Shown here: positions 1,713 through 48,137 of the stretch, one piece after another
How positions within the stretch are numbered: position 1 is the stretch's first letter
Layout of the letters: the number at the start of each line of letters is the position of its first letter
Assembly: GCF_019331695.1 (NCBI RefSeq)
Contig: NZ_JAHBBI010000014.1
Location: 1-48,137 of the forward strand
Reading direction: 5' to 3'
DNA: 48,137 nt
Source: Bifidobacterium pluvialisilvae
GTDB lineage: Bacteria; Actinomycetota; Actinomycetes; Actinomycetales; Bifidobacteriaceae
The notes under the pieces: model-generated
The model's input: only the letters and a program-made list of their open reading frames with translations
The model's database searches: none
Told to the model about the DNA's origin: nothing
Position numbers and translations under genes: made by a program

Positions 1713-1739
1713 ATTGCCCATATCGTCCGGTGTCTCGGT

Positions 1740-2670
1740 TCGTTGGGTTTTGGCTTGTTCGATTTCGGCCTGTTCAGTGGTGTGATTCGTTCGGTAGTTT
1801 GATTCGTCCGGTAATGCGGTTCATTCGGTTTCGGTCCGTTCGTTGATTCGGCTCGTTTAGCGGTGTGATTCGTCCGTTGATTTGATTCGTTCGGTAATGC
1901 GGTTTGTGGGTCTAATGGTTCACTGACGTTGGTGATTCCGCTTGCTTGCCGGAGCGCCGACGCAATGTGGGTCATTCCGATTGGGTTTGTGGGTCGTATC
2001 GATCAGATTTGTGGGTCCCCTCGTCCACTCAGTTGGGTTTGTGGGTCCTCTCGCTCATTCGGTCGGGTTTGTGGGTCTGGGACGTTCAATAACCGTGGGT
2101 CTGACCGTTCATTAATCGGTTTGTGGGTCTAGGGTATACGTGAAGAGACCGAAAATCGGCTCCTCATGAACGGATAGACCCACTTTCGATTTTCCTCGAC
2201 TTTTTGGACCCACAAATCTGACTATGGCGTCCTGTTAGACCCACAAATCCGGTCCATCGGGGGACAGGCCGTCAGTGAGATCTGGCTGCGACGGTAAATT
2301 GGGCCCACAGATTTGGCTGCGCGGCCGATTGGACCTCGAATTCGGCTCGCCGACCGATTGGACCCACAAATTCGGCTGTGATGACTGGGTGGACCCACAA
2401 ATCCGGCTATGGCGGCTGAGTGGGTCTACAGATGCTTGCCGACCGCGATTGGACCCACGAATCTGGCTGCGTGGCTAAATATGGCTGTCACAATCGATTG
2501 GACCTCGAATTCGGCTCGCCGACCGATTAGACCCACAAATCTGGCCGTGAGACTGGGTAGACCTACAAATCCGGCTACGGCGACCAATCAGACCCGTGAA
2601 TCCGGCTGTCACAATCGATTGGACCCACGAATCCGGCCGTGGCGATCGATTAGACCCACAACACCGCGTC
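1740..2670. repeat. GTGGGTC/GACCCACAAA array, locus 1
   Basis: Non-coding block between the rpmB terminator and recG. From 1740 to 1902 it is GT-rich and holds two diverged copies of a roughly 85-bp unit containing TGATTCGT and GGTAATGCGGTT. From 1903 to 2129 the motif TTTGTGGGTC or a close variant starts at 1903, 1986, 2008, 2038, 2068 and 2120, with shorter GTGGGTC forms near 1967 and 2095. A core follows at 2120-2183. Beyond it the motif appears reversed as GACCCACAAA: 2207, 2238, 2302, 2332, 2361, 2392, 2452, 2501, 2530, 2560, 2591, 2622 and 2653, mostly 29-32 bp apart, as part of a unit that reads roughly GACCCACAAATCCGGCT plus 13-14 less conserved bases. Long frames crossing it only translate the repeat. 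I do not recognise the element; two more loci are at 23961 and 29518. Confidence 0.85.
2102..2176 (-). other. core hairpin of array locus 1
   Basis: Read on the minus strand: CCGTTCATGAGGA, a stem GAGGAGCCGA closed by TCGG-T-CTCTTC with one bulged T, then a GACCCACAAACC motif, then AATGAACGG. The outer CCGTTCAT and ATGAACGG can pair. The same order of parts occurs on the plus strand in loci 2 and 3, with different but still complementary stem sequences. Confidence 0.65.
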
Positions 2671-2712
2671 GATGTGAGCCGACGGTCCACGCGAGCGGTC
2701 ACAATGGGGCGT

Positions 2713-16739: not shown

Positions 16740-19700
16740 TCGGCATGCGATTCATGGGCATCGGCCCGTATGAGAACGAATACTCCATTGATTTCGCCGC
16801 GTTGAACCGGTCGCATATCTTCCTCATCGAAGGCGAGACCGGCTCCGGCAAGTCGACCATCCTCGACTGCATCAGCTTCGCGCTGTACGGCGCCGTTTCC
16901 GTGGACGACGCCAGCAAGGACCGTCTGCGCTCGCGATTCCTGGATACGCAACAGACGCCGTCGTTCGTCGACCTGATTTTCGAAATCGACGGCGCATACT
17001 ATCGCGTACGCCGTCAACCGCAGTACGACCGGCAAAAACTGCGCGGCACGGGCACGGTCACGGTGAACGCCAAGGGTGCGCTATGGAAGCTCGACGCCGG
17101 CTTCGCCGATCTCGTACGTCGGACGCGTGCCGGGGCGGACGGCGGCGATGGCAGCGCCGACCGGTATTTCGACTACGCCGAAGCCGGCGGCCACGGCGAG
17201 GCGTTGGCCACGCAGGCGCGCGACACCGGCGCCGAGATCATCCGACTGCTGCATCTCAACCGCGACCAGTTCTCCAAAACCGTGATGCTCGCGCAGGGAC
17301 AGTTCTCCGGCTTCCTCAAATGCAAGCCCGAGGAGCGAACGAAACTCATCAAGGACCTGTTCTCTGCGGACATCTACGAACAGATTCAAAAGATACTTGA
17401 TGACATGCGAAAGAAACGTTCCGCCGATGTGGATGCGCGACGACGGAACGCCGTCGGTGCGATCGTCGAAGCGAAGGACAACGCCGAACGCATCGCCGAA
17501 CTCGCCGTGCAATGCGGCGTCGCGGATGACGAAACGAACGATGGCGACGAAGCGGATGACATCGATGATTCGATCGACGTTGACGGCGACGATGTGGACA
17601 ATGCGGACACGCCTGGGGATAACGTCGGCGACGAAACGGATGCCGCCGGTGCGGATGACGACAATATCTCTGGGGATGACGCCGCATGGTGCCTGACCGA
17701 CGACGGCGACCTCGCCGAACCGGCGATGGGCGCCGACGACATCGTCGCCACCATCGGAGAACGGTTACGGCAGACCAACGAAACCTCCGACGCCGTACTG
17801 CGGCACTGCGGCGACACCGTGCGAACGGCGGCCTCCGACCTCGCCGTCGCGCGCGAACGATTGGACACCGTGCAACGGCTGCGGTCACTGGCCGCTGACG
17901 AACGGACGGCCGCCGAACGCAATGACCGGCTCGCCGCCCGCGCCGAGGAGATGCGCAAGAACCGCGACAGGCTGGAACGCTCTCGCAAGGCCGGCCCCGT
18001 CGTCCAGGCGCAACGCGAATGTGCGGCGCTCAGCGTGCAACGCGGCAAACAGGAGCGACGGCTGGAGGAGTGCAAGGAGCAGCTCGCCCGATACGACTCC
18101 GCCGAAACGATGACCGAAGCACGGGAGGCGGCGTTGCGCAAGGCGGCCGAACGGCCCGTGGCCGAAGCCGCATTGGACTCCGCACGTACGCTGCGCGAAC
18201 GCATCGGCAAAGCCGACGCCGCCCGCAAGCAGGCCGAAACCGCCGTCGCGGCCGTCAGCCAACGCGAACGACAGGTCACGGCCGCGGCGGCCGCACTCGC
18301 CGCCCTGGAAACCTCCGAGGCGGTGAATGAGCAGCTGCAGGACGTCATCCGTCAGGAGGCCGCCGCCGCACAACTCAACGAACGACTCGACGAGGCGAAC
18401 AACCGGCTCGACCATGCCCGCCGTCGCGACACCGCCGAACGCAAACTCCACGAACTCGAAGACGCCGCACTGCTCGCCGGCCGTGGCCATCACGAAGCCG
18501 AAGCCGCATACAAGCGGGCGCAGGCCGCCTACCGCGCCGCCGGCGCCGCGGCATTCGCGCGTCTGCTGGAAGACGGCCACCCGTGCCCGGTCTGCGGCGC
18601 CCTGGAACATCCGACCCCGACCGTCGCGCCCGCCGACGCGCCGGATGAAACCCGACTCGACCAATTCGACACCGCCGTAAGTGACGCCCTGAAGGCCTTC
18701 GAAGCCGCGAAGAGCAGCGTGCTCGTGCAGCGCAAGACCATCGAGACGGAAAGCGCGCTCGCCGGCGGGCTCAGCGTCGAACAGGCGCAGTCCGCCGTGA
18801 ACGAGCTGCAGCAGCGAATCACGGAATCCGAGGCGCTTGCCGACCGGCACAAGGCGCTCGCCGAGCGGCTGTTCGCCATCCGCGACGCCGAACAGGCCGA
18901 CACCCAAGCCCGGCAGCAGCTGGAAATCGCTCGCAACAACGCCGAGAACGCGCGCCGTCTCGCCGATGCGGCGGCGGAGCTCTGCCTCGACGACACGACC
19001 GGCCGCCCGGTCACGCTGGACGTCGTGGAACTGCGGGAGCAGCAGGCGCAGCAGGCCATCGACGAATGCGAACGGCAGCGGACCATCGCCGACCGGCTCG
19101 GCGACAGGCTCGACCAGCGAGCCACATGGGAACGGCAGACGGCCGAAGCCGAAGCGACGTTGCGTACGCTCGGCAAGCAATTCGCCACCGCCATCGCCAA
19201 CCGTGACCGACTCGCCGCGGCCAACGGGTTCGCCGACGTCGACGAAGCCCGGCTTTCGATGCTGCCGGAACAGGAAGCCACGCGGCTCCAGCAGATTCTT
19301 GACGACTACGACGCACAAGTCAGCATCGCCGAGGCCGACCTGACGCGCATCCGCCGTGAACTCGACGGGCTTGCACGGACGCCGGTCGCGGAGCGGCTGC
19401 TTGGGGAGGGCGCCCATGATGCGACCGTCGGGCCGGGCGCCGAACCGGGTACCGGGCATGACGCGGCCGACGCCCCCACCACGACGGACAGGGCCGGCTT
19501 CCTCGCCGCCATCGCCGCGCTCGACGAAACCGCCGCCGCCGACCGTGTCGCCGCCGCCGAACAGACCCACGAAACCGCCATCCGCATGGAGGAGCAGGCG
19601 CGCAGCCTCGACGACACACGTCGCCGTCGAGCCGCCACACTCGCCACGCAGCTGCGCGATTGGGCCAAGGCCAGCGCCGACTACGCGCCCGTGCGCGACA

Positions 19701-23536: not shown

Positions 23537-23610
23537 TGACGAATGGTGCCGACTGATGCGGCACGTTCGACATATTTGGCGCGTTAGTAAACCAACCTGA
23601 GCTTAAGCCA

Positions 23611-23675
23611 AAAACCCCGCCCGTGATGCGTTCGTTCGTTTGTTACGTTCGTTCGCATTGCAGGCGGGGTTTTCG
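23611..23675 (+). terminator. terminator of the rpsF-ssb-rpsR-rplI operon
   Basis: AAAACCCCGCC (23611-23621) and GGCGGGGTTTT (23663-23673) form a perfect 11-bp stem. The loop contains two GTTCGTTCG words. A-run and T-run ends allow action in both directions. Confidence 0.85.
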
Positions 23676-23679
23676 TTGT

Positions 23680-23942
23680 TGTTTTTGCTGCTGCGTGCCG
23701 TTGCCGCTGCTGTGTGTTGTTGCTGTGTGCCGCTGCTGCTGTGTGTTGGTGTAGCTGTGTGCCGTTGTTGCTGCCGTGTGTTGGTATAGCTGCGCGCTGT
23801 TGTTACTGCCTCGTGCCGGTGTTGTTGCTGCACGCTGTTACTGCTATCGTGCGCCGTTGCCGTCGAGTGTTGGTGTAGCTGAGCGCTGTTACTGCTGTGC
23901 GCCGCTGCTGCCGCTGTGCGCTGTTGGTTCAGCTGCTGATAC
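23680..23942. repeat. degenerate GCTG/GTGT-rich short repeats
   Basis: About 260 bp built from variants of GCTGTGTGTTGGTGTAGCTG and GCCGTTGTTGCTGC, strongly skewed (T and G on this strand). No start codon with a ribosome-binding site, and frames through it give only low-complexity sequence (for example AATAHSS). It fills the space between the rplI terminator and array locus 2. Confidence 0.65.
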
Positions 23943-23960
23943 GTGCCTTGGATGTTGGGA

Positions 23961-24406
23961 TTTGTGGGTCTCGCAATCCATCCAGCCAGATTTGTGGGTC
24001 TCGCGAATTCTCGTTGGGGGCTTTGTGGGTCTGGAGTGTTGCCGGAATCGGAAAGTGGGTCGTTCCGTTCACGAGGAAGGGTTTTTGAGGGTCCTCGTGT
24101 ATGTCGTGGACCCACAAACCCGTTTATGAACGGTTTGACCTGCAGTTGGTGAATGGCCTAGACCCACAAACTCGGTTGGATGATTCGCTAGACCCACAAG
24201 TTCAATGGGATGAAACCGCTGGACCCACGAATCCGTTCCATTAGACCCACGAATCCGTTCCGCCAAGCCCACGAATCCGTTCCGTCAGGCCCACGAATCC
24301 GTTACGTTAAGCCCACGAATCCGTTCCGTCAGGCCCACGAATCCGTTCGCGTCCGCAAGCCCGTTGTGTTGGACCCACAAACCCTTTGGGAACGGGTTTG
24401 TGGGTC
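23961..24406. repeat. GTGGGTC/GACCCACAAA array, locus 2
   Basis: Left half: TTTGTGGGTC at 23961, 23991 and 24022, and AAAGTGGGTC at 24052, spaced 30-31 bp. Core with hairpin at 24062-24130. Right half: GACCCACAAA or variants at 24109, 24161, 24191 and 24222, then 24244, 24266, 24288, 24310 and 24332 with an exact 22-bp period (CCCACGAATCCGTTCCGTC-type unit). It closes with a perfect 13-bp palindrome, GACCCACAAACCC (24372-24384) against GGGTTTGTGGGTC (24394-24406). Lies between convergent rplI and the tautomerase gene. Confidence 0.85.
24065..24132 (+). other. core hairpin of array locus 2
   Basis: TCCGTTCACGAGGA, the stem ACGAGGA with TCCTCGT (7 bp) around a T-rich loop, GTGTATG, GACCCACAAACCC, then TTATGAACGG. 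The order matches the locus 1 core read on the other strand. The outer CCGTTCA and TGAACGG can pair. Confidence 0.65.
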
Positions 24407-24419
24407 GTGGAGGTCGTAA

Positions 24420-24476
24420 CCGTACAGGAAAATACGTACGTATCGTACGTATCGGTACGGAATCTATTTCAGATTC
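24420..24476. repeat. palindrome cluster after the tautomerase gene
   Basis: CCGTAC (24420-24425) and GTACGG (24455-24460) enclose the perfect palindrome ATACGTACGTAT (24432-24443) and a further CGTACGTAT. GAATCT (24460-24465) pairs with AGATTC (24471-24476) 5 bp beyond the tautomerase stop. It may serve as its terminator or be a protein-binding site. Confidence 0.4.
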
Positions 24477-28313: not shown

Positions 28314-28417
28314 TGTCATCCTGAGCGTAGGCCGTAGGCCGGAGTCGAAGGATCTGGCACATCATCCGATTCAAGATCCTTCGACTCCGCCGTTCCACGA
28401 CTCCGCTCAGGATGACA
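28314..28417. repeat. complete TCATCCTGAGC-type palindrome
   Basis: TGTCATCCTGAGCG (from 28314) and GGAGTCGAAGGATCT are answered by AGATCCTTCGACTCC and CGCTCAGGATGACA (to 28417). Both arms are present without tandem expansion, giving the clean form of the family seen at 5973, 14779, 42807, 45070 and 47985. Confidence 0.85.
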
Positions 28418-29472: not shown

Positions 29473-29671
29473 TTCATCAATCACCCTCGTGTCCTGCTGA
29501 AGCCATGTGACCTTGGTTTTGTGGGCTGATTCGATTGGCAGGCCCCGGTTTGTGGGTCTGCCCGTTTTGTTGTTGCCGCTGCCCGTTTTGCTGTTGTTGG
29601 GTTTGTGGGTCTACTGGTTTGCCTGATTGGCGTTGTGGGTCTGTTGGTTCGTTCGATTGGGTTTGTGGGTC

Positions 29672-29753
29672 TATTCGTTCGTGAGGAGGCCGTTTTTGCC
29701 GTCCTCGTGTATATGCCAGACCCACAAGCCCGTTAATGAACGGATTTACCCAC
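29672..29753 (+). other. core 1 of array locus 3
   Basis: ATTCGTTCGTGAGGA, the stem GAGGA-GGC with GCC-G-TCCTC (one bulged G) around a T5 loop, GTGTATATGCCA, GACCCACAAGCC, then TTAATGAACGG. The same architecture as in loci 1 and 2, with different stem bases that still pair. Confidence 0.65.
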
Positions 29754-29941
29754 GGTTATTGAATAGGCTGGACCCACATATTTTCCTGATGAACAGGTAG
29801 ACCCACAAACCCGAATGGCCGACCTGTCATATGTTTGGATAGGCCCACAAACTCCGGCATCAGACCCACAGACTCGAGTGGTCGGACCCACAGACCAAGC
29901 TGGGACCCACGGATTCGAGTGGTTGATTGGTTTTGTGGGTC

Positions 29942-29998
29942 TATTCGTTCGTGAGGAGGTCGTTTGGGCCGTCCTCGTGTATGCGCCAGACCCACAAA
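29942..29998 (+). other. core 2 of array locus 3
   Basis: ATTCGTTCGTGAGGA, GGTCGTTTGGGCC-G-TCCTC, GTGTATGCGCCA and GACCCACAAACC. It lacks the final ATGAACGG, so the outer stem of the other cores cannot form here. Confidence 0.6.
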
Positions 29999-30103
29999 CC
30001 TGAGTGGTTAGACCAGACCCATCAGACCCACAAACCTGAGTGGTTAGACCAGACCCAACAGACCCACAAATCCGAATGGTTAGACCCACAAAACCGGGGG
30101 AGG

Positions 30104-32413: not shown

Positions 32414-35400
32414 GTGAAGCAGCGTATCCGCCGTATTATGCGCGATATGGCCGGGCGGGTCGATAATCCGTCATGTGATGGGAACGCATGTCGGACGCCC
32501 TTGCATACCCTCGTAATCAAGAACGATGACGATGCTTCCAACAATAGGGGGCTATGTCATACGTGGCGCAAGGCCGTAGCGGCGACGCTCGCCGTCATCG
32601 TGCCCGCGTTCGTGATGGTGCCCGCGTCGAACGCGGCCACCGGTTCCGGCTCCGTCACCGTCACGTCGGACGGCGTCACGACGTCGGGCGTGTCGACGAT
32701 CGGTTCGTCGTCGATCAACGCGACGTATTCCGCGGCCGATGCCGCGTTCGATAACGCCATCGTCAGCGCCGCCAGTGCCAATACGGTGACGACGTCGCCG
32801 TCCGCCGGCGCCACGTCATCGTCCGATTCATCGACATCCGATTCGTCGACGACCGGCAAGACTACGGCCCCGTCCGAATCGTCGAGCGCGAACACGACGG
32901 GCGGCTCGACGTCGAAAGGCTCCTCGACGTCGGATTCCACGGCAAATAATCCCACGTCCAAGGACTCGACGTCCGATGGCGCGGCATCGACGTCGTCCGG
33001 CAACAATGCCAACGCGAACAACGACGCGACGACGAACGGCGCGACGTCCGACAAATCGACCACGTCGAAGAGCGCGAAATCCACGCCCAAGCGAGCCACC
33101 AAGGCCGCCGCGGACTCCCTTTCCGGCCGTGACTTCGACGGTCAGGTCGTCAAGACCATCAACGGCAAGACGTACATCCTCATCGGCGACGAGCAGCAGC
33201 TGCGCGCCATCGGCACGAAGAAGGCCGTTGTGGGCAAGGTCTGGCAGATCAAGCAGAAATGCGAGCACGTATTGTGTGCCACGGACTCCTCCTGGACCGA
33301 TCAGGGCTCGGAATCGTTGGCCTACGCCGGCGACGCCGATCTTACGGCCGGCGCCAAGCTGCGTGACAAGGAATTCCCCGACCATGACGGCCTGCTGAAC
33401 ACGGTCGGTGCCACGCGAACCAAATACTTCGTCAAGGACGCCGACGGCAACCGCCACAATGTCGACGACGCCACGTACACCGCCAAAACCGGGCTGGCCT
33501 ACACCTCCGACGCGAACTACATCGTGTTCCGCGACATCGACACCTCCTCCGACGCCGAAGTCGGCACGACGTCGGGTGCCGCATGGACGCCGCTCATGTT
33601 CTCCGGCGTCATGCTCGGCGTGGCCGGCGGCGACACCACCGGCTCGCTGTGGAGCGGCATCAACGCCGATGGTGTGAGCACCAATGACACCGCCGCACGC
33701 CCGGTCGTCTCCAACGTCAAGGTGCATCAGACCGGCCAGCTCGATGTACGCAGCCACACCGGCATCGGATTCTTCGGCACCATCTCCAACAAGCTCGACG
33801 AGAACGACCCGTTGCGGGGCGCGGTAACGCCCGCATACGTGAGCAACATCGAACTCAACGACGTGTCGGTGCGGAACGACAGCACCGAAGTGCACGTGGA
33901 CAAGACGCTCATCAGCGCCATCGTCGGCGGGCTCGGCACCATCGTCGGCGGCCTGCTCAGCGAGGCGCTGAAGGCGCTCACCGGCGGCAAGATCGATATC
34001 AGCGGACTCGTCGAAAACCTGCTGACCATCCGCAAGGCCGACCCATCCTCGTTGGCCACCGGGTCGTTCGCCGGGCGCGTCATCGGCTCCGTGACCATCG
34101 ACAAATGCCAGAGCACCGGCGTGACCGTATCCAACGTTGCCGGCATGACCGGCGGCTTCGTCGGCTACGCACAGGGCGAAACGAAGTACGACATCGTCTC
34201 CAATCTGCTCGGCGACATCGTCAAACTGCTGACGAACATCCTCAACGCCATCCCCGGCCTCGGCCTCGGCGACCTCATCACCCTGCTGCTCAACAGCAAC
34301 ATCATCGATGCGGACGCGCTCATCCCCGTCGCCTACTACAACCCGACCATCAGCAGCAGCGCCGTCAAGGACTTCGCCGAAGGCACCGTCATCGGCACGG
34401 CCGGCAAGGACTATGCGGGCGGTTTCGTCGGCATCCAGAACGGCACCATCATCACCAACTCCAGCGTGACCAGCGCCAACGCCTACACCGTCAAAGGCGG
34501 CGCCTACGTCGGCGGCTTCGCCGGACTCATGCGCAACGACGTCATGAAAGGCGCGCTCAGCGAGGTCGGCGTCGAACTCATCCGCCTCTCCCAGCCGCAA
34601 AGCACCACCGTCGGCTCGTCGGTCGACGCCGACGTGACCGTGCAGGCCGGCACCTACGCGGGCGGCTTCGCCGGCGCCATGGCCAACAGCTACGCCGTCA
34701 ACGACACGCTCGACGGCACCATCACGGTCAAGGCCAGCGGCGTCAAGGACGACAAGGGCACCAAGGCGCTCGCAGGCGGATTCACCGGCGTCGCGGCCGT
34801 CGGCTGGGTGTCGGACCTTGGCGCGGGCGAGTCGAAGAACTCCGACCTGCTCACCGGCGTGAACAACCTGCTCGGCGACCTGCTCACCAAGGACCCGGCC
34901 ACGGCGCAAAGCCTGCTCACACTCGTCGGTGTGGAGGAATCGGCGTTGCTTGGCATCCGCACCAGCGGCTCCATCACCGTGGAATCCGGCAACGACTACG
35001 CCGGCGGACTCATCGGCCGCGGCGACGGCACCATGATCGCCGCGTCCGACGCCACCCATGTGAACAAGCTTTCGTTCTGGAAGCATACGAAGCTCACTGT
35101 GCCGACCGAGCGTACGAACGTCATCGGCGGACTGAAATCGGTGAGCACCACCGGCTCGTACGCGGGCGGCATCGCCGGCAAGCTCAGCACCGCCTCCATC
35201 GGCGGCCTCGTCAACCAGACCGTCGGCCTCGGCGAATACCTGCCGTTCGAAGTCAGCGGCACCACCGTCTCCGGCGAGAGCGATGGCCTCACCGTCACCG
35301 CCAAGGGCGAGTATGCGGGTGGCGGCATCGGCTTCGCCATGGGCGGCAACATCGGCAAGGCCACCACGGCCTACGACAAGGCCGCCGTGCCGGATTCGGC

Positions 35401-38400
35401 CGCCGTGGCCGTCACCGGTGTGAAATCCGTGACCGCGACCAACCGCGCCGGCGGCTTCATCGGCGTCTCCGGCCCCGGCGACCTGCTCAGCGCCGGCGGC
35501 GTCGACCTGCTCGGCCTCGGCCTCATCAAAATCGAGGGCCTGCTCTCCGTGGCGGCCGGCGTGAAGATCGCCATCGACGACGTCACCGTCTCCGGCATTC
35601 CGACCGGCATGAACGTCGCCGCCACCGGCAAGCACGTTGACGGCGAATCCACGCAGTACATGGCCGGCGGCTTCGTCGCCCAGTCGAACAGCACCCAGGC
35701 CACCGACGCGCACGTGACCAACCTCGCATCCGTGACCGCCGACGGCACCACCGGCAACGCGGGCGGCTTCGTCGGCGTCTCCGTGACCGGCAGCCTCGCC
35801 GATGTGCTGCCCAAGGACGACGACGGCGCGCTCAAATCCATCCTCAGCCTCGGCGGCAAGGAGGGCCTCATCACCGCCATCGGCTACATGGTGCCCAAGT
35901 ACACCAATGCCGACGTCGCATTCGTCAACGGCGGCACTGTGACCGCCAACATGGCCGGAGGCTTCGCCGGTGACCTGCAAAGCGGCAAGATCGACGACGC
36001 CAAGACGGCCGGCGGCAGCGGCTGGGCCGTGACCAACATCGACACCGTCAACGGCGGCGCCTACGCGGGCGGATTCGCCGGCCGTGCCCGGTCCGGTGCG
36101 CTCGCCTCCTCCGACGGCGGCATCAGCATCCTCGGCGGTCTGGGCGATCTCGGTTTGGATGTCAACGACCTGGTCAGCGTGGCCGGCGCCTACGTGCCGG
36201 TGATTGCGGGCGCGGGCGTGCACTCCGACGACACCACCGTCGAGAAGACCAGTGGCCGTAAGATTTCCGACCCCGACAATCCGGGACTCAAGGTGACGGC
36301 CTCGCGACTGGCCGACACCGACTCGCAGTCCGGCTCGGCCGGCGGCTACATCGGCTACGGCTCCGGCGTGCAGGTCTCCGACTCCGACGTCACGCAGCTG
36401 CGTCACACCACCGTCAAGGAGCCGAGCGCACTGGAAGGCACCGACGGCAGCCCCTACTTCGACACCGCCAAAAGCTCGTACGCGGTGACGGCCAAGCGTT
36501 TCGCCGGCGGCTACATCGGCCGCATGGACATCGGCTCCGCGGCCTCCGTGGGTGGCGGCCTCAAGGTGCTCAAGGACATCAAGCTCACCCAGATCGCCAG
36601 CGTGCTGTCGGTGGTGGTCTCCACCATCGAGCACTCCGACGTGACCGGCGCGGCCGCAGGCTATGCGGTCATCGCCAGCGACACCAGCGACGCGCAGAAC
36701 GCCATCGGCGAGGCAGGCGGCTTCGTGGGCAGCGTCAAGGGTGGCCACATCCAGGACTCCAGCGCGCACAGCTTCTCGCATATCATCGGCCAGGTGACGG
36801 CCGGCGGCTACGCGGGCGGCATCGCCCCCGGCGACGTGGCCAGCGTGCTCAACGACTCCTCGCTGTTCAGCGGACTCGTCTCCACCAGCGGCACGCTCGC
36901 TTCGCTGATGCAGGACTTCGTGCCCACCGTGCGCAACAGCTCCACCGACGCCGTGCCCTGCGGCGGCGTGGTCCGCGCACAGGCGGCCTCCGACGCCGCC
37001 ACGCTGCGCGGCGTGGCCGGCGGCTACGTGGGCAACAACGAAGGCGGCCACATCTGGGGCAACAACAACGCCTCGTGGAAGAACGAGAACGACGGCGAAC
37101 ACCATTACACGGGCGCCCAGCGCACGGCGTTCGCCGCACGCATCCGCTCCGTCTACGGCGCGGAGATGGCCGGCGGCTACACCGGCTTCATGCATGCGGC
37201 CAGCACCGCCAAGACCGGCAGTCTCAGCCTGTTGTTCGGCGTCGTCAAGGTCGATAATCTGCTCGGCGCGTTGCAGGTGAGCTACCCGACCGAAGAGAAC
37301 ACGCAGGTCACCGGACCGCTGCGCAACCTCGACTACGCCACCTGGCAGGCCTGGGCCAAGGCCGTCGGCTCCCGCGGCGGCTACGGCAAGGAATTCGCCG
37401 AACTCCTGAAGAACGCCGGCAGCATCACCGATCAGGAAACACTGAACAAGGCCATCGACACCTATATCTATGGCACCAACGTGGTGGCCGGACGCTCCTC
37501 GTACGCCTCCGGCGCGAACACGGCCGACGGCGGCATCGCCGGAGGCCACGTGGGCCTCATGCGCGCCGGCGTCATCACCAACGGCCAGACGCAGGACACC
37601 AGGCAGGTCAAGGCCATGCGTGCCGCAGGCGGCTTCGCGGGAAGCATGGAATCCGGCGGCGCCGTCGAACTCGGCAGCCTTGACGTGGCCGGCGGACTCA
37701 TCAGCGCCGACCTCGGTGCACTGCTGCCGCAGGTTCTCAACGTGTTCGTGCCCGTTGCCAAGACATCGTCCGTGGCCGGCTACCGCCGCGGCATGACCGT
37801 GACCGCCACCGGCACCGACCTGACGCATATGAATGGCTTCGCCGGCGGCTACGTCGGCTACGCCTCCGGCGCGCAGATCTGGGGCGACAAGACTTTCGAC
37901 GTCAACACCGACGCCAACGCCGACGACCGTTGGACCCTCACCGCCACGCACTCCGGCGCCAAGGCCACCGGCGCCCACGTGACCAACCTGCGCCGCGTTT
38001 CCGGCACGAACACCGTGGGCGGCTACGCGGGTCTCATCACCGCGGCCGGCATGGCCGAAGCCAACACCAACGCCACCGAAGGCGTGCTGCAGAAGCTGCT
38101 CAACAGCCTTATCAACACGCCCAACAAGCTGGTCTCCGTGCTCGACGCCACGGTCTCCACCGTGCGCGGCGCCTCCGTGGCGTCCGTCAAGGACGGCGGC
38201 AGCGGCGAGGCATGGGGCTTCACCGTCGACGGCTCCTACAAGGTCGGCGGCGTGACCAAGTACGCCCGTGCGGCGGGCGGATTCGCCGGATCGATGAAAG
38301 CCGTCGTGGCCGGCACCGAAACCGGCGGCACCTCCGCACTCGACACGCTCACCGTGGGCGGCCTGCGCGGCGTCGACGGCGGCCAGTACGCCGGCGGTTT

Positions 38401-40780
38401 CTTCGGCCAGGCCGACACCACATCCGTGGCGTCCGTGGCCGGCACCGACGGAATCAATGGCTCCACCGACCAGAGCACCGGACTGCTGCTCGACCTCATC
38501 AAGGCCGGCAACGTCAGTGCGCTCGACGCCTTCCGCACGTTCATCCACCATGCGAGCGTCAACGGCGTGGCCGACGGCATCCAGATCCGCGCCCACGACG
38601 CCAGCAAGCAGGGCATCCTCGACTCCACGCGCTTCACCGGCGCGGCAGGCGGCTTCGGCGGCGGCCTCATCAACAGCACCGTCGACTACGGCACCGTCAC
38701 CAACCTCAACAGCGTCAAGGGCGTCAACTACGCGGGCGGCTTCGTCGGCCACCTCGGCAAGGCCGGCACCGTGGACGTCGACAACGCCGGCGTCTCCAAA
38801 CTGCTCGGCGCGACTGCCGGTGTGCTCGACATCTGGGGCTCCCACGCCGAACACTCGTCCGTCGCGGGCATCGCCGCCGGCTTCACCGTCGACGCATCCC
38901 ACGCCGGCGACCAGAAGTACACCAACACCAAGGGCACCGGCTCGGCCACCGGCCGCGAGGTCGTAGGCGGCTTCGCCGGCTACGCCGACCTCGCGCGCAT
39001 CGCCGACTCCACGGTGACGAACCTCAAGAAGACGTCCAGCGCCGAGATCGCCGGCGGCTTCGTCGGCGAGACCACGCACGCGTACCTCGTCGACCTCGAC
39101 GCCAGCTCGCCGCTCGTCGATCTGGTGCTCCAGATCGTGAACCTGCTCGTCAAGGCGCTGTATCTCAACAAGATCGACGTCATCGATTTGGGCAAATGGT
39201 TCCCCCAGCTCGACGGCAAGGACAGCCTCTTCAACCTCAAGGTGCTCTCGAAAGGCGACGTACTGTACGTAAACCTCTTCGGATTCAAGATCGGCGTAAG
39301 CCTCTCCAAGAAGAGCGACACGAACAATCAGCAGACCGACGTGGCCATCATCACCATCGGCGACTCCGTCATCAAACTGCCCTGCAACAACGACGGCATC
39401 ATCCAGGACGAGAACACGCGCGAAAACCTGAGCGTGCAGCTCATCAAGGGCAACCGCACCAAGGCCGTGAACTCCTCCGTCACCGGCATCGCGCCGAACG
39501 GGTACGACGTGTTCGGCGGCGGCGCCACGCAGACGACCGACGGCGTGGCCTCGCTCCCGACCGGATACGCGGGCGGCTTCGCCGGCCTCAACGCCGAAGG
39601 CGTGCTGCAGAACGACCACATGACCTACGCCGACACCATACGCGGCACCAGCGGCCTCGTCGACCCGTTCGGCAACACCACGCTCAAATCCAACTGGAAC
39701 TTCAACAGCACGAAGAAGATCGTCGGACCGGACGACGACGGCCGCTACAACACGTACCGCGTGTATCGCACGGCCGATGACTCGGCCGACGCGGCGAACG
39801 TCGACGTGAACGGCACGGCGACGAAGATTTCGGACAAGACGACCGACGACGCGACCAAACTCGACCGTTGGGACGTGAACTACTACCAGACCGTCAACGC
39901 CTACGACGCCGCCACCGCCGGCAGCGACGCGGCCGGCGATGCGAAGACCGACTGGGTGGGCATCAAGGACGCGACCGTCGCCACGGCCGGCGGTACCGCT
40001 TCGTCGAAGTCGCTTGGCGTCTACGTCTCCGCCGCCAAGGCCGTGCTCATGCTTGACAAGGCCGTGGACGACAACACCGGCGGGTTCACGCCCGAGCCCG
40101 ACGACGGCCAGGACCCGTGCGGCGAAAACGGCTGCAAGACCACCGACCTGACCCTGCAGAAGGTCTGGAAGAACGGCGCGTTGGAGAAGCCGAAATCCAT
40201 CCAACTGGAGATCCGCGCCTACTACACGGACGCCGACGGCAAGCGCGTGGAAGCCAAAACCATCGCCTGCTACGAGGCAGACTGCTCCACCAGCACGGTC
40301 ATGATGCCGCTGAAGGAGACCATGGATTCGAGCGATGGGTCGCTGTGGAGCGACACGTGGCGCAAGACCATCAGCCGCAAACTGCCGGTCGCATTCGTGG
40401 ACGGCAAGGACGCGAACGGCGACGACATCGTGCGGTACTACACGTACACCGTCACCGAGGTTGGCATGACGTTTGCCGACGGGTCAAGCAAGACGCCGGC
40501 CGAAGCCGGGTACGCGGTGGACGTGCAGTACGACACCAAGGAGAACGTGGCGACCATCACCAACTCCTCGCCGCTGCCCAACACCGGCGGCGAAGGCGTG
40601 ATGTGGCTGCTGCTCCTCGGCGTGCTGCTCGTGGCCGCCGGCAGTGCCTGGTACCTGCGCAACCGGTATGTTGCCGGTGGTGCGGGAGCCGGCTCGGCCG
40701 GAGGTGCGGGCGTCGGTTCGGCTTCGGGCGGTCGCGGCCCCGGTGGCTCCGGCAGAAAGCGAGGTGCCCATGCCGCATGA
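32414..40780 (+). CDS. giant LPXTG-anchored pilus/surface adhesin
   Basis: 2,788 residues from a GTG preceded by AGAAAGGACG. Signal sequence with a long N-region (about 1-52), hydrophobic core at 54-70, and likely cleavage after ASNA (74). Residues 75-235 are a Ser/Thr/Asp/Asn linker. The body holds about 30 copies of an AGGF(V/A)G-type word, roughly every 60-100 residues (YAGGFVG, VAGGYVG and so on), resembling the GLUG motif and suggesting a long beta-solenoid. A C-terminal domain (TTDLTLQKVWKNGALEKPKS to TYTVTEVGMTFADG) looks like a Cna-B fold. Sorting signal LPNTG at 2721-2725, hydrophobic helix, then Arg-rich residues; the tail after the helix is unusually long (about 40 residues, Gly/Ala/Ser-rich, ending RKRGAHAA). 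First gene of the pilus locus; likely the adhesive subunit. Confidence 0.9.
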   Translation: MKQRIRRIMRDMAGRVDNPSCDGNACRTPLHTLVIKNDDDASNNRGLCHTWRKAVAATLAVIVPAFVMVPASNAATGSGSVTVTSDGVTTSGVSTIGSSSINATYSAADAAFDNAIVSAASANTVTTSPSAGATSSSDSSTSDSSTTGKTTAPSESSSANTTGGSTSKGSSTSDSTANNPTSKDSTSDGAASTSSGNNANANNDATTNGATSDKSTTSKSAKSTPKRATKAAADSLSGRDFDGQVVKTINGKTYILIGDEQQLRAIGTKKAVVGKVWQIKQKCEHVLCATDSSWTDQGSESLAYAGDADLTAGAKLRDKEFPDHDGLLNTVGATRTKYFVKDADGNRHNVDDATYTAKTGLAYTSDANYIVFRDIDTSSDAEVGTTSGAAWTPLMFSGVMLGVAGGDTTGSLWSGINADGVSTNDTAARPVVSNVKVHQTGQLDVRSHTGIGFFGTISNKLDENDPLRGAVTPAYVSNIELNDVSVRNDSTEVHVDKTLISAIVGGLGTIVGGLLSEALKALTGGKIDISGLVENLLTIRKADPSSLATGSFAGRVIGSVTIDKCQSTGVTVSNVAGMTGGFVGYAQGETKYDIVSNLLGDIVKLLTNILNAIPGLGLGDLITLLLNSNIIDADALIPVAYYNPTISSSAVKDFAEGTVIGTAGKDYAGGFVGIQNGTIITNSSVTSANAYTVKGGAYVGGFAGLMRNDVMKGALSEVGVELIRLSQPQSTTVGSSVDADVTVQAGTYAGGFAGAMANSYAVNDTLDGTITVKASGVKDDKGTKALAGGFTGVAAVGWVSDLGAGESKNSDLLTGVNNLLGDLLTKDPATAQSLLTLVGVEESALLGIRTSGSITVESGNDYAGGLIGRGDGTMIAASDATHVNKLSFWKHTKLTVPTERTNVIGGLKSVSTTGSYAGGIAGKLSTASIGGLVNQTVGLGEYLPFEVSGTTVSGESDGLTVTAKGEYAGGGIGFAMGGNIGKATTAYDKAAVPDSAAVAVTGVKSVTATNRAGGFIGVSGPGDLLSAGGVDLLGLGLIKIEGLLSVAAGVKIAIDDVTVSGIPTGMNVAATGKHVDGESTQYMAGGFVAQSNSTQATDAHVTNLASVTADGTTGNAGGFVGVSVTGSLADVLPKDDDGALKSILSLGGKEGLITAIGYMVPKYTNADVAFVNGGTVTANMAGGFAGDLQSGKIDDAKTAGGSGWAVTNIDTVNGGAYAGGFAGRARSGALASSDGGISILGGLGDLGLDVNDLVSVAGAYVPVIAGAGVHSDDTTVEKTSGRKISDPDNPGLKVTASRLADTDSQSGSAGGYIGYGSGVQVSDSDVTQLRHTTVKEPSALEGTDGSPYFDTAKSSYAVTAKRFAGGYIGRMDIGSAASVGGGLKVLKDIKLTQIASVLSVVVSTIEHSDVTGAAAGYAVIASDTSDAQNAIGEAGGFVGSVKGGHIQDSSAHSFSHIIGQVTAGGYAGGIAPGDVASVLNDSSLFSGLVSTSGTLASLMQDFVPTVRNSSTDAVPCGGVVRAQAASDAATLRGVAGGYVGNNEGGHIWGNNNASWKNENDGEHHYTGAQRTAFAARIRSVYGAEMAGGYTGFMHAASTAKTGSLSLLFGVVKVDNLLGALQVSYPTEENTQVTGPLRNLDYATWQAWAKAVGSRGGYGKEFAELLKNAGSITDQETLNKAIDTYIYGTNVVAGRSSYASGANTADGGIAGGHVGLMRAGVITNGQTQDTRQVKAMRAAGGFAGSMESGGAVELGSLDVAGGLISADLGALLPQVLNVFVPVAKTSSVAGYRRGMTVTATGTDLTHMNGFAGGYVGYASGAQIWGDKTFDVNTDANADDRWTLTATHSGAKATGAHVTNLRRVSGTNTVGGYAGLITAAGMAEANTNATEGVLQKLLNSLINTPNKLVSVLDATVSTVRGASVASVKDGGSGEAWGFTVDGSYKVGGVTKYARAAGGFAGSMKAVVAGTETGGTSALDTLTVGGLRGVDGGQYAGGFFGQADTTSVASVAGTDGINGSTDQSTGLLLDLIKAGNVSALDAFRTFIHHASVNGVADGIQIRAHDASKQGILDSTRFTGAAGGFGGGLINSTVDYGTVTNLNSVKGVNYAGGFVGHLGKAGTVDVDNAGVSKLLGATAGVLDIWGSHAEHSSVAGIAAGFTVDASHAGDQKYTNTKGTGSATGREVVGGFAGYADLARIADSTVTNLKKTSSAEIAGGFVGETTHAYLVDLDASSPLVDLVLQIVNLLVKALYLNKIDVIDLGKWFPQLDGKDSLFNLKVLSKGDVLYVNLFGFKIGVSLSKKSDTNNQQTDVAIITIGDSVIKLPCNNDGIIQDENTRENLSVQLIKGNRTKAVNSSVTGIAPNGYDVFGGGATQTTDGVASLPTGYAGGFAGLNAEGVLQNDHMTYADTIRGTSGLVDPFGNTTLKSNWNFNSTKKIVGPDDDGRYNTYRVYRTADDSADAANVDVNGTATKISDKTTDDATKLDRWDVNYYQTVNAYDAATAGSDAAGDAKTDWVGIKDATVATAGGTASSKSLGVYVSAAKAVLMLDKAVDDNTGGFTPEPDDGQDPCGENGCKTTDLTLQKVWKNGALEKPKSIQLEIRAYYTDADGKRVEAKTIACYEADCSTSTVMMPLKETMDSSDGSLWSDTWRKTISRKLPVAFVDGKDANGDDIVRYYTYTVTEVGMTFADGSSKTPAEAGYAVDVQYDTKENVATITNSSPLPNTGGEGVMWLLLLGVLLVAAGSAWYLRNRYVAGGAGAGSAGGAGVGSASGGRGPGGSGRKRGAHAA

Positions 40781-42796: not shown

Positions 42797-42806
42797 CAGG
42801 TGCACT

Positions 42807-42958
42807 TGTCATCCTGAGCGGAGCCCCCTCTTGTCATCCTGAGCGGAGGACGCAGTCCGGAGTCGAAGGATCTTGGTGCCCGGCGGGGCAAGATCCTTCG
42901 ACTCGCTCCGCTCGCTCAGGATGACAACAAGGGAGATCGCTCGCTCAGGATGACAACA
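42807..42958. repeat. TCATCCTGAGC-type palindrome after the pilin gene
   Basis: TTGTCATCCTGAGCGG starts a near-complete palindrome (42831-42926) with apex GGTGCCCGGCGGGGC. A truncated unit precedes it (CTTGTCATCC at 42815) and a terminal unit is duplicated at 29-bp spacing (GCTCAGG at 42914 and 42943). Confidence 0.8.
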
Positions 42959-45069: not shown

Positions 45070-45255
45070 CTGTCATCCTGAGCGGAGGGCGTAGCCCGGA
45101 GTCGAAGGATCTTGGTGCCCGGGGGGGGGGGGCAAGATCCTTCGACTCGCTCCGCTCGCTCAGGATGACAGAAGGGACGGCGATCGCTCAGGATGACAGA
45201 AGGGACGGCGATCGCTCAGGATGACAGAAGGGACGGCGATCGCTCAGGATGACAA
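45070..45255. repeat. TCATCCTGAGC-type palindrome with 12-G apex and 28-bp tandem units
   Basis: One arm at 45071-45113, apex GTGCCC plus G12 (45121-45132), then the other arm from AAGATCC. The end unit CGCTCAGGATGACAGAAGGG then recurs at 45157, 45185, 45213 and 45241 with an exact 28-bp period. The rest of 44921-45335 holds repeat C and no gene. Confidence 0.85.
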
Positions 45256-47984: not shown

Positions 47985-48137
47985 CTGTCATCCTGAGCGG
48001 AGGGCGCCGCTTCCCGTCACTATGTCATCCTGAGCGGAGGGCGTAAGCCCGAAGTCGAAGGATCTCGTGCCCCCACCCGTCCAAGATCCTTCGACTACGC
48101 CGCGAGCGGCTCCGCTCAGGATGACATAGTGACGGGA
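47985..48137. repeat. TCATCCTGAGC-type palindrome at window end
   Basis: A truncated arm (TGTCATCCTGAGCGGAGG) begins at 47986, then a full palindrome from TCCCGTCACTATGTCATCC (48012) to the last base ATGACATAGTGACGGGA. Here the pairing extends past the usual ends through TCCCGTCACTA / TAGTGACGGGA. It may continue beyond the window. Confidence 0.8.

Follow-up and report, generated by a model that had tools for sequence, protein, structure and literature searches.

What kind of element is the array of short oriented motifs that stands between the rpmB terminator and recG in Bifidobacterium pluvialisilvae, and does the genome hold a partner for it? We approached this question from a 48,137-nucleotide contig (NZ_JAHBBI010000014.1, analysed over its full length and called the window below), in which the original prediction had recognised, at 1740..2670, inverted halves of GTGGGTC motifs around a core. 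Motif counts show that this array is real: allowing one mismatch, the window contains 43 matches to TTTGTGGGTC, where 2.15 are expected and 100 shuffles reach 5 at most. The array is part of an extra block at 1718..2678 (no strand assigned), delimited by blastn edges at 1717 and 2679. The leftmost part of this block (1718..1902, no strand assigned) is degenerate, T/G-rich and devoid of intact motifs, so that the predicted range, while it does enclose the array, includes motif-free sequence at 1740-1900. There follow a left half-array of forward TTTGTGGGTC half-sites on the plus strand (1903..2129), a palindromic core (2120..2186) whose asymmetric sequence reads on the minus strand in core alignments, and a right half-array of GACCCACAAA half-sites on the minus strand (2177..2662). 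Folded as single-stranded DNA, the region around the core (2069-2187) gives a z-score of -3.95.

The proposed mirror symmetry was borne out, with GTGGGTC on the left, GACCCAC on the right and, as the sole exception, one forward copy at 2420 in the right half. Eight exact GTGGGTC copies precede the core (1906, 1967, 1989, 2011, 2041, 2071, 2095, and 2123), separated by gaps of 61, 22, 22, 30, 30, 24, and 28 bp, and nine exact and two one-mismatch GACCCAC copies, from 2177 to 2653, follow it. The spacing of 29-32 bp ascribed to most of the right-hand units holds for five of the ten successive gaps (30-31 bp); the other five measure 59-78 bp.

A genome-wide search, named beforehand as the test that could overturn the prediction, instead returned strong clustering and symmetry. 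As an exact 10-mer, TTTGTGGGTC occurs 258 times in the window's genome (G000; 2.66 Mb, 21 contigs), compared to once for its reversed control; among the other eight genomes of the genus, G004 has 44 and G005 has 28, with the rest ranging from 0 to 7. We mapped motifs in the window, in 30 further stretches fetched from G000 and in 10 from G004, and found one main plan—forward half-sites, a step of 54-55 bp over a palindromic core of ~67 bp, then reverse half-sites—in 31/36 G000 arrays (window included) and 7/10 G004 arrays, with most of the others showing a step of 84-85 bp or a single side only. No named repeat family was found to match, in keeping with the earlier view that the plan lacks a named counterpart. 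Away from the cores, 203 spacings in the fetched arrays gather at 20-22, 30-31, 42, 51-52, and 60-61 bp, and the suggestion that motifs share one helix face holds over this larger set (R = 0.67 at 10.2 bp, where the null mean is 0.11 and 0/2000 randomisations reach this value). Because arrays copied from one another are non-independent, this test supports helical phasing without proving it.

The cores themselves number 46, of which seven were skipped as atypical and one of the resulting 39 (L145) was left out of the alignment; the 38 aligned rows give the consensus GAAAGTGGGTCTATCCGTTCGCGAGGAnGGGGTTTTCGGCGTCCTCGTGTATGnCnTAGACCCACAAACCC.. / GAAAGTGGGTCTATCC... Compensatory change in these 38 cores was matched or exceeded in 124/500 shuffles for double-change pairs, 11/500 for double-change cells and 62/500 for the score; covariation is therefore not clearly above shuffles, and these data do not demonstrate a core hairpin. 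With regard to genes, none of the 36 G000 arrays of at least three motifs (31 stretches including the window) overlaps a called coding sequence, and their neighbours are tandem in 21 cases, convergent in 12 and divergent in two, with one neighbour missing in the last. Where both neighbours were called, 33/35 arrays lie downstream of at least one gene. The calling was heuristic and overlooked some genes, including the partner gene described below. As for an origin on mobile DNA, blastn of the second window array against plasmids and phages gave no match, and the core pattern was found in none of the viral contigs searched; a spaced-motif scan of viral contigs returned 24 stretches, all of which we read as tandem repeats of other kinds.

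The two further loci predicted within the window share motif, orientation switch and core with locus 1. The second array (23961..24406, plus strand) lies between convergent genes and has its core at 24052..24118 (plus strand); the third (29549..30092, plus strand), also between convergent genes, has two plus-strand cores that resemble one another (29662..29728 and 29932..29998). Directly to the left of the second array, at 23640-23960, is a T/G-rich, microsatellite-like stretch of TGTTGCTG/TGTGTGCC that recalls the degenerate left side of the first. By RecG, the nearest relative is B. catulorum (84%), and two further species of the genus, B. saimiriisciurei and B. primatium, could be compared with the window at all three sites. 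All three (3/3) are empty in both sister species: site 1 measures 961 bp in the window and 23 bp in B. saimiriisciurei (L062) and B. primatium (L063), site 2 (23538-24471) ~934 bp as opposed to 211-219 bp without motifs, and site 3 ~736 bp as opposed to 103-105 bp, again motif-free. The 23 bp of B. saimiriisciurei contain TGGGTCTGCTGGTTC, which resembles a lone half-site and is not kept in B. primatium. The elements are dispersed, and present or absent at given sites from one species to the next. A site in common with a G000 array was found for 6/10 fetched G004 stretches (two more gave short matches only) and for all five fetched G005 stretches. Two of these G005 stretches (L187 and L188, at C1:157-175 kb) lie ~14 kb apart in opposite orientation and match the same G000 site, the product of either a local duplication or an assembly artefact. 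By eye, we saw no target-site duplication or fixed ends at three array and two single-palindrome sites, whose flanks have diverged. Since sister species offer sites with the element as well as sites without it, the manner in which the repeats spread is open to testing.

Other members of the family carry the same core with different words. A sequence-only model of the core (R1), run on 189 genomes of the family with the best candidates (up to 19) kept per genome, matches at least 12 of them. In the 20 R1 loci fetched from outside G000, G004, and G005 (two of them overlapping), we recognised by eye the same core design around other words, including CTGGGTATA.., CTTGGCCAACC.., TTTGGTC.., CTGGGCATA.., and GTGGGCATAGAC.. 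These homologous cores with other words led us to a candidate partner gene acting in trans, homologs of whose protein also stand next to differently worded arrays in L241, L236, and L225. In G000, this protein has 316 residues and is encoded on contig C16 at 17775-18722 (L161:3276-4223), just upstream of rpsJ, where two similar arrays (84% identity over ~303 bp) bracket the gene. The gene is somewhat atypical in composition, with a GC content of 0.57 and GC3 of 0.65 compared to 0.65 GC for the window. No homolog is encoded in the window or in the loci L061-L140, and of six candidate stretches for phage homologs, none was confirmed.

The distribution of this gene follows that of the cores. While homologs of some kind occur in 20/23 genomes searched, close orthologs (at least 45% identity, a line chosen after the data were seen) are present in 11/12 genomes with R1 cores and 1/11 without (Fisher 1e-4, for genomes that are related to one another). 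G024, the one genome where a close ortholog occurs without an R1 core, shows by eye an array with another word next to the gene, and G005 has arrays and lacks a close ortholog. Besides L161, we inspected the flanks of 13 genes for close homologs and saw an adjoining core or array in 11/13, the exceptions being G026 (C6:1156), with scattered words only, and G074, with no array. Words at the gene and words dispersed elsewhere agree in G000, G001, G007, G031, G068, and G058, and agree partially in G002 and G006. They disagree in G004, whose gene is flanked by TTGG-type palindromes and most of whose arrays are built from TTTGTGGGTC. TTGG-type words occupy six places in G004, five of them no more than 30 kb from the gene, of which two are its own flanks; this count leaves out one G004 and three G000 matches that fall inside GTGGGTC-type arrays (TGGG.. 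words). Judging from these sequences, we suspect that the resident allele was replaced in G004 and that the older TTTGTGGGTC arrays were orphaned. The loss of half-sites that decay of orphaned arrays would predict was inconsistent from site to site in G004.

The pairing of gene and palindrome extends well beyond Bifidobacterium. A profile search at E 1e-10 or better recovered homologs in 24/246 Actinomycetota genomes and 15/171 genera, part of which were fetched so that the two flanks of each gene could be compared, with a shared element called at 40 bits or more. After removal of five duplicates from 122 loci, an element common to both flanks was found at 70/117 distinct homolog loci, a set that includes the seed L161 and related, non-independent species, compared to 1/267 control genes (Fisher 9e-44); the other 47 homolog loci fell below the threshold. 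Gene calling for the controls was heuristic; 219 of them lie in the neighbourhood of recG in many species, and the 48 drawn from seven further stretches yielded none above the threshold (0/48). Among mechanically called open reading frames, 1/300 had a matched flank element. By simple-shuffle z-scores, 59/70 flank elements fold at z below -2. To the eye, the Collinsella aerofaciens homolog has four element copies upstream and two downstream, and the Tsukamurella homolog one on each side. The words are specific to gene and species: flank elements are alike in 5/5 pairs of homologs with more than 80% protein identity, 1/22 pairs at 60-80%, and 0/2305 pairs below, and the overall correlation of protein with word, although small, is significant (Mantel rho 0.17, 0/999 as high).

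G000 itself encodes four homologs, all with related repeats on both flanks, the flank pair of one of them (L310, C12:302658) reaching only 36.5 bits. Around L310 and around a homolog of a second species (L264, G005:C5:45177), GGTTCCCATCCGTYG arrays stand in both orientations; the fourth G000 homolog (L311, C16:179894) lies between two 171-bp elements with 90% identity. The homolog at C19:45217 is flanked by an element (TATGGTGC..) that forms a second dispersed family, with 26 distinct places in G000, 11 of which lie around its own gene at C19:27-93 kb. Excluding the flanking copies, 9/24 fall within these 66 kb (p 3e-9, for an interval chosen after the data were seen). Compared with G004, two of the 11 C19 places are occupied, two empty and seven unalignable; at one empty place (C19:33621), the genomes differ by a block of ~110 bp that holds the palindrome, and at the other (C19:82116), the intergenic sequence has diverged. 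The window contains other palindromes as well. A separate dispersed one, TGTCATCCTGAGCGGAG..GAAGGATCT..AGATCCTTCGACTC..GCTCAGGATGACA, lies at 28314-28417, 42806-42956, 45070-45171, and 48012-48137 and has additional copies in other G000 stretches, and two neighbouring imperfect palindromes upstream of rpmB (1108-1270), ATTCATGAATCG..CGATTCATGAAT and AATTCACGAATCG..GATTCGTGAATT, did not recur in the other stretches against which they were compared (L141 and later). A very long open reading frame (2788 aa) occupies 32414-40780 on the plus strand of the window.

What might the partner protein do? At E 0.001, no Pfam or NCBIfam family matches the array-bracketed gene. Its N-terminal half is AbiEi-like: one PADLOC AbiEi model matches 19/25 aligned members at E 0.001 or better, and the best match of Pfam AbiEi_4 to the family (1.7e-4, 22.1 bits) is below the 25-bit cut-off. 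In the C-terminal half, N199-E202, Q220, R234, D236, W239, E250, D252, G253, K256, R278, and R291 (L161 numbering) are invariant over 25 proteins with 31-63% identity to the first, and contain the pattern D..E.DG..K, the usual look of PD-(D/E)XK enzymes, from which we infer a nuclease-like half of this type. The pattern is a point of likeness to DUF559, which is related to the Vsr-like PD-(D/E)XK nucleases, and the Tsukamurella homolog passes the gathering score of DUF559 (Pfam PF04480; 23.8 vs 20.6 bits). The Collinsella homolog stays below it (15.0 bits), and 0/25 aligned Bifidobacteriaceae proteins reach DUF559 at E 1. Among solved structures, phmmer found none, and a profile gave only weak matches that look unrelated.

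Considering these results together, we think it probable that locus 1 belongs to a family of palindromic repeats as one of its dispersed, non-autonomous copies, that the partner of this family is one protein gene on the chromosome, bracketed by arrays of the family, and that this system spreads copies into intergenic sites. Under this model, the AbiEi-like half would bind the word, which in arrays would happen cooperatively and along a single face of the helix, and the PD-(D/E)XK-like half would nick or cut the palindrome as a hairpin, a cruciform or duplex DNA. Repair or replication could then copy the palindrome into new intergenic sites and would likewise homogenise the dispersed copies with both flanks of the gene, and the outward half-site arrays may grow by local duplication. 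The gene–palindrome pairing, its breadth, the words peculiar to gene and species, the dispersal and the differences in occupancy between species are observed; DNA cutting and copying are what we infer. The wider proposition, to which we lean with more reserve, is that the family represents an undescribed class of elements in Actinomycetota, in which a fusion of an AbiEi-like domain with a PD-(D/E)XK-like nuclease would recognise a palindromic word of its own and propagate it. Every such gene would found a separate family, at least two of which (GTGGGTC and TATGGTGC) are dispersed in G000, and allele replacement, which we suspect for G004, would change the word and leave the older arrays orphaned.

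The main rival is an operator role, in which the AbiEi-like half would act on the flanking inverted repeats to repress the gene that encodes it, and the dispersed arrays would make up a regulon or a protein sink. It takes this place because AbiEi is known to bind inverted repeats in its own promoter, with positive cooperativity reported in Streptococcus agalactiae (PMC7319586); the similarity to AbiEi in 19 of 25 members and helical phasing, compatible with cooperative binding, also fit. A dedicated binding protein was in fact the best-fitting guess of the original prediction, and the array-bracketed candidate gene and phased spacing agree with it, the binding itself being putative. As the whole story, we nonetheless judge an operator role unlikely. 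Copies stand on both sides of the gene, site occupancy differs between close species, and with 12 convergent and only two divergent arrays among the 35 with both neighbours called, many cannot be promoter operators; both-side copies, convergent positions and sister-species differences all argue against it. The likeness to AbiE type IV toxin-antitoxin systems, which consists of an AbiEi-like DNA-binding half, AbiEi itself being a binder of inverted repeats, is also incomplete, as here a nuclease-like C-terminal half belongs to the same protein and repeats are found on both flanks and dispersed.

Other readings account for part of the evidence. Intergenic, dispersed palindromes at sites empty in sister species would be expected of a miniature inverted-repeat element that a conventional transposase mobilises, or of a REPIN/RAYT system, but with no fixed ends or target duplications seen at sites with diverged flanks and no Pfam or NCBIfam match at E 0.001 for the array-bracketed gene, this is improbable. 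Within this reading, identity with REPIN/RAYT was rejected because the Y1 transposase PF01797 (Y1 being the only transposase type searched) was found in none of the 12 genomes that have R1 cores; among the 23 genomes searched, it is confined to G003 and G009. That the arrays organise or segregate the chromosome through a nucleoid protein, one of the roles first suggested, suits their array form and helical phasing; it is very hard to reconcile with arrays that are limited to a few species and that two close relatives lack at each of the three window sites, with words that differ between related species and with second-family copies that concentrate around their own gene, and we give it very little credence. 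The same low standing applies to terminators of transcription or RNA hairpins that slippage has multiplied, despite cores that fold and the 33/35 arrays downstream of a called gene: the window has no Rfam match at gathering score, covariation is not clearly above shuffles (which leaves the RNA scaffold of the original prediction unsupported as well), and the words peculiar to each gene that flank members of one protein family on either side would be left unexplained.

The nearest known kind of system is nevertheless that of the REPtrons and TIRtrons (REPIN/RAYT and TIRYT), described as short intergenic palindromes and enzyme genes flanked by their own repeats (PMC3116915, PMC3733652). Both share dispersed intergenic palindromes and an enzyme gene between cognate repeats, here at 70 of 117 loci as opposed to 1 of 267 controls. 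They differ in that the enzyme here is unrelated, without a Y1/HUH transposase (PF01797) in the R1-core genomes, that the core of ~67 bp carries the word and, on reading the 38-row alignment, no GTAG/CGTC tag at the foot of the hairpin, and that half-site arrays extend outward from it. Drosophila foldback elements are eukaryotic and have inverted ends of subrepeats of ~10, 20, and 31 bp; inverted ends built from subrepeats resemble our arrays, a likeness by description only. The STAR elements of staphylococci are intergenic, lineage-specific arrays of short GC-rich repeats whose function is unknown (PMC3532100). Their likeness is limited to the array form, as STAR consists of 14-bp direct repeats with the consensus T(G/A/T)TGTTG(G/T)GGCCC(C/A) and our arrays of a TTTGTGGGTC unit with an orientation switch, and the sections consulted mention neither a palindromic core nor a partner gene (PMC3532100). 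In the open-access literature, searched in full text and judged by titles and the beginnings of abstracts, with most subscription journals and all preprints outside this scope, we found no description of the gene–palindrome pairing. We rate the enzyme–repeat pair as new and the way in which such a system works as already known, REPIN/RAYT being the nearest kind.

Until now, the example of one enzyme tending palindromic repeats has been REPIN/RAYT. If our reading is true, a second, unrelated enzyme family would do the same, and enzyme-tended palindromes would have arisen more than once. Dozens of natural protein–word pairs would become available for learning how an AbiEi-type domain reads DNA, and many intergenic palindromes in Actinomycetota would be explained.
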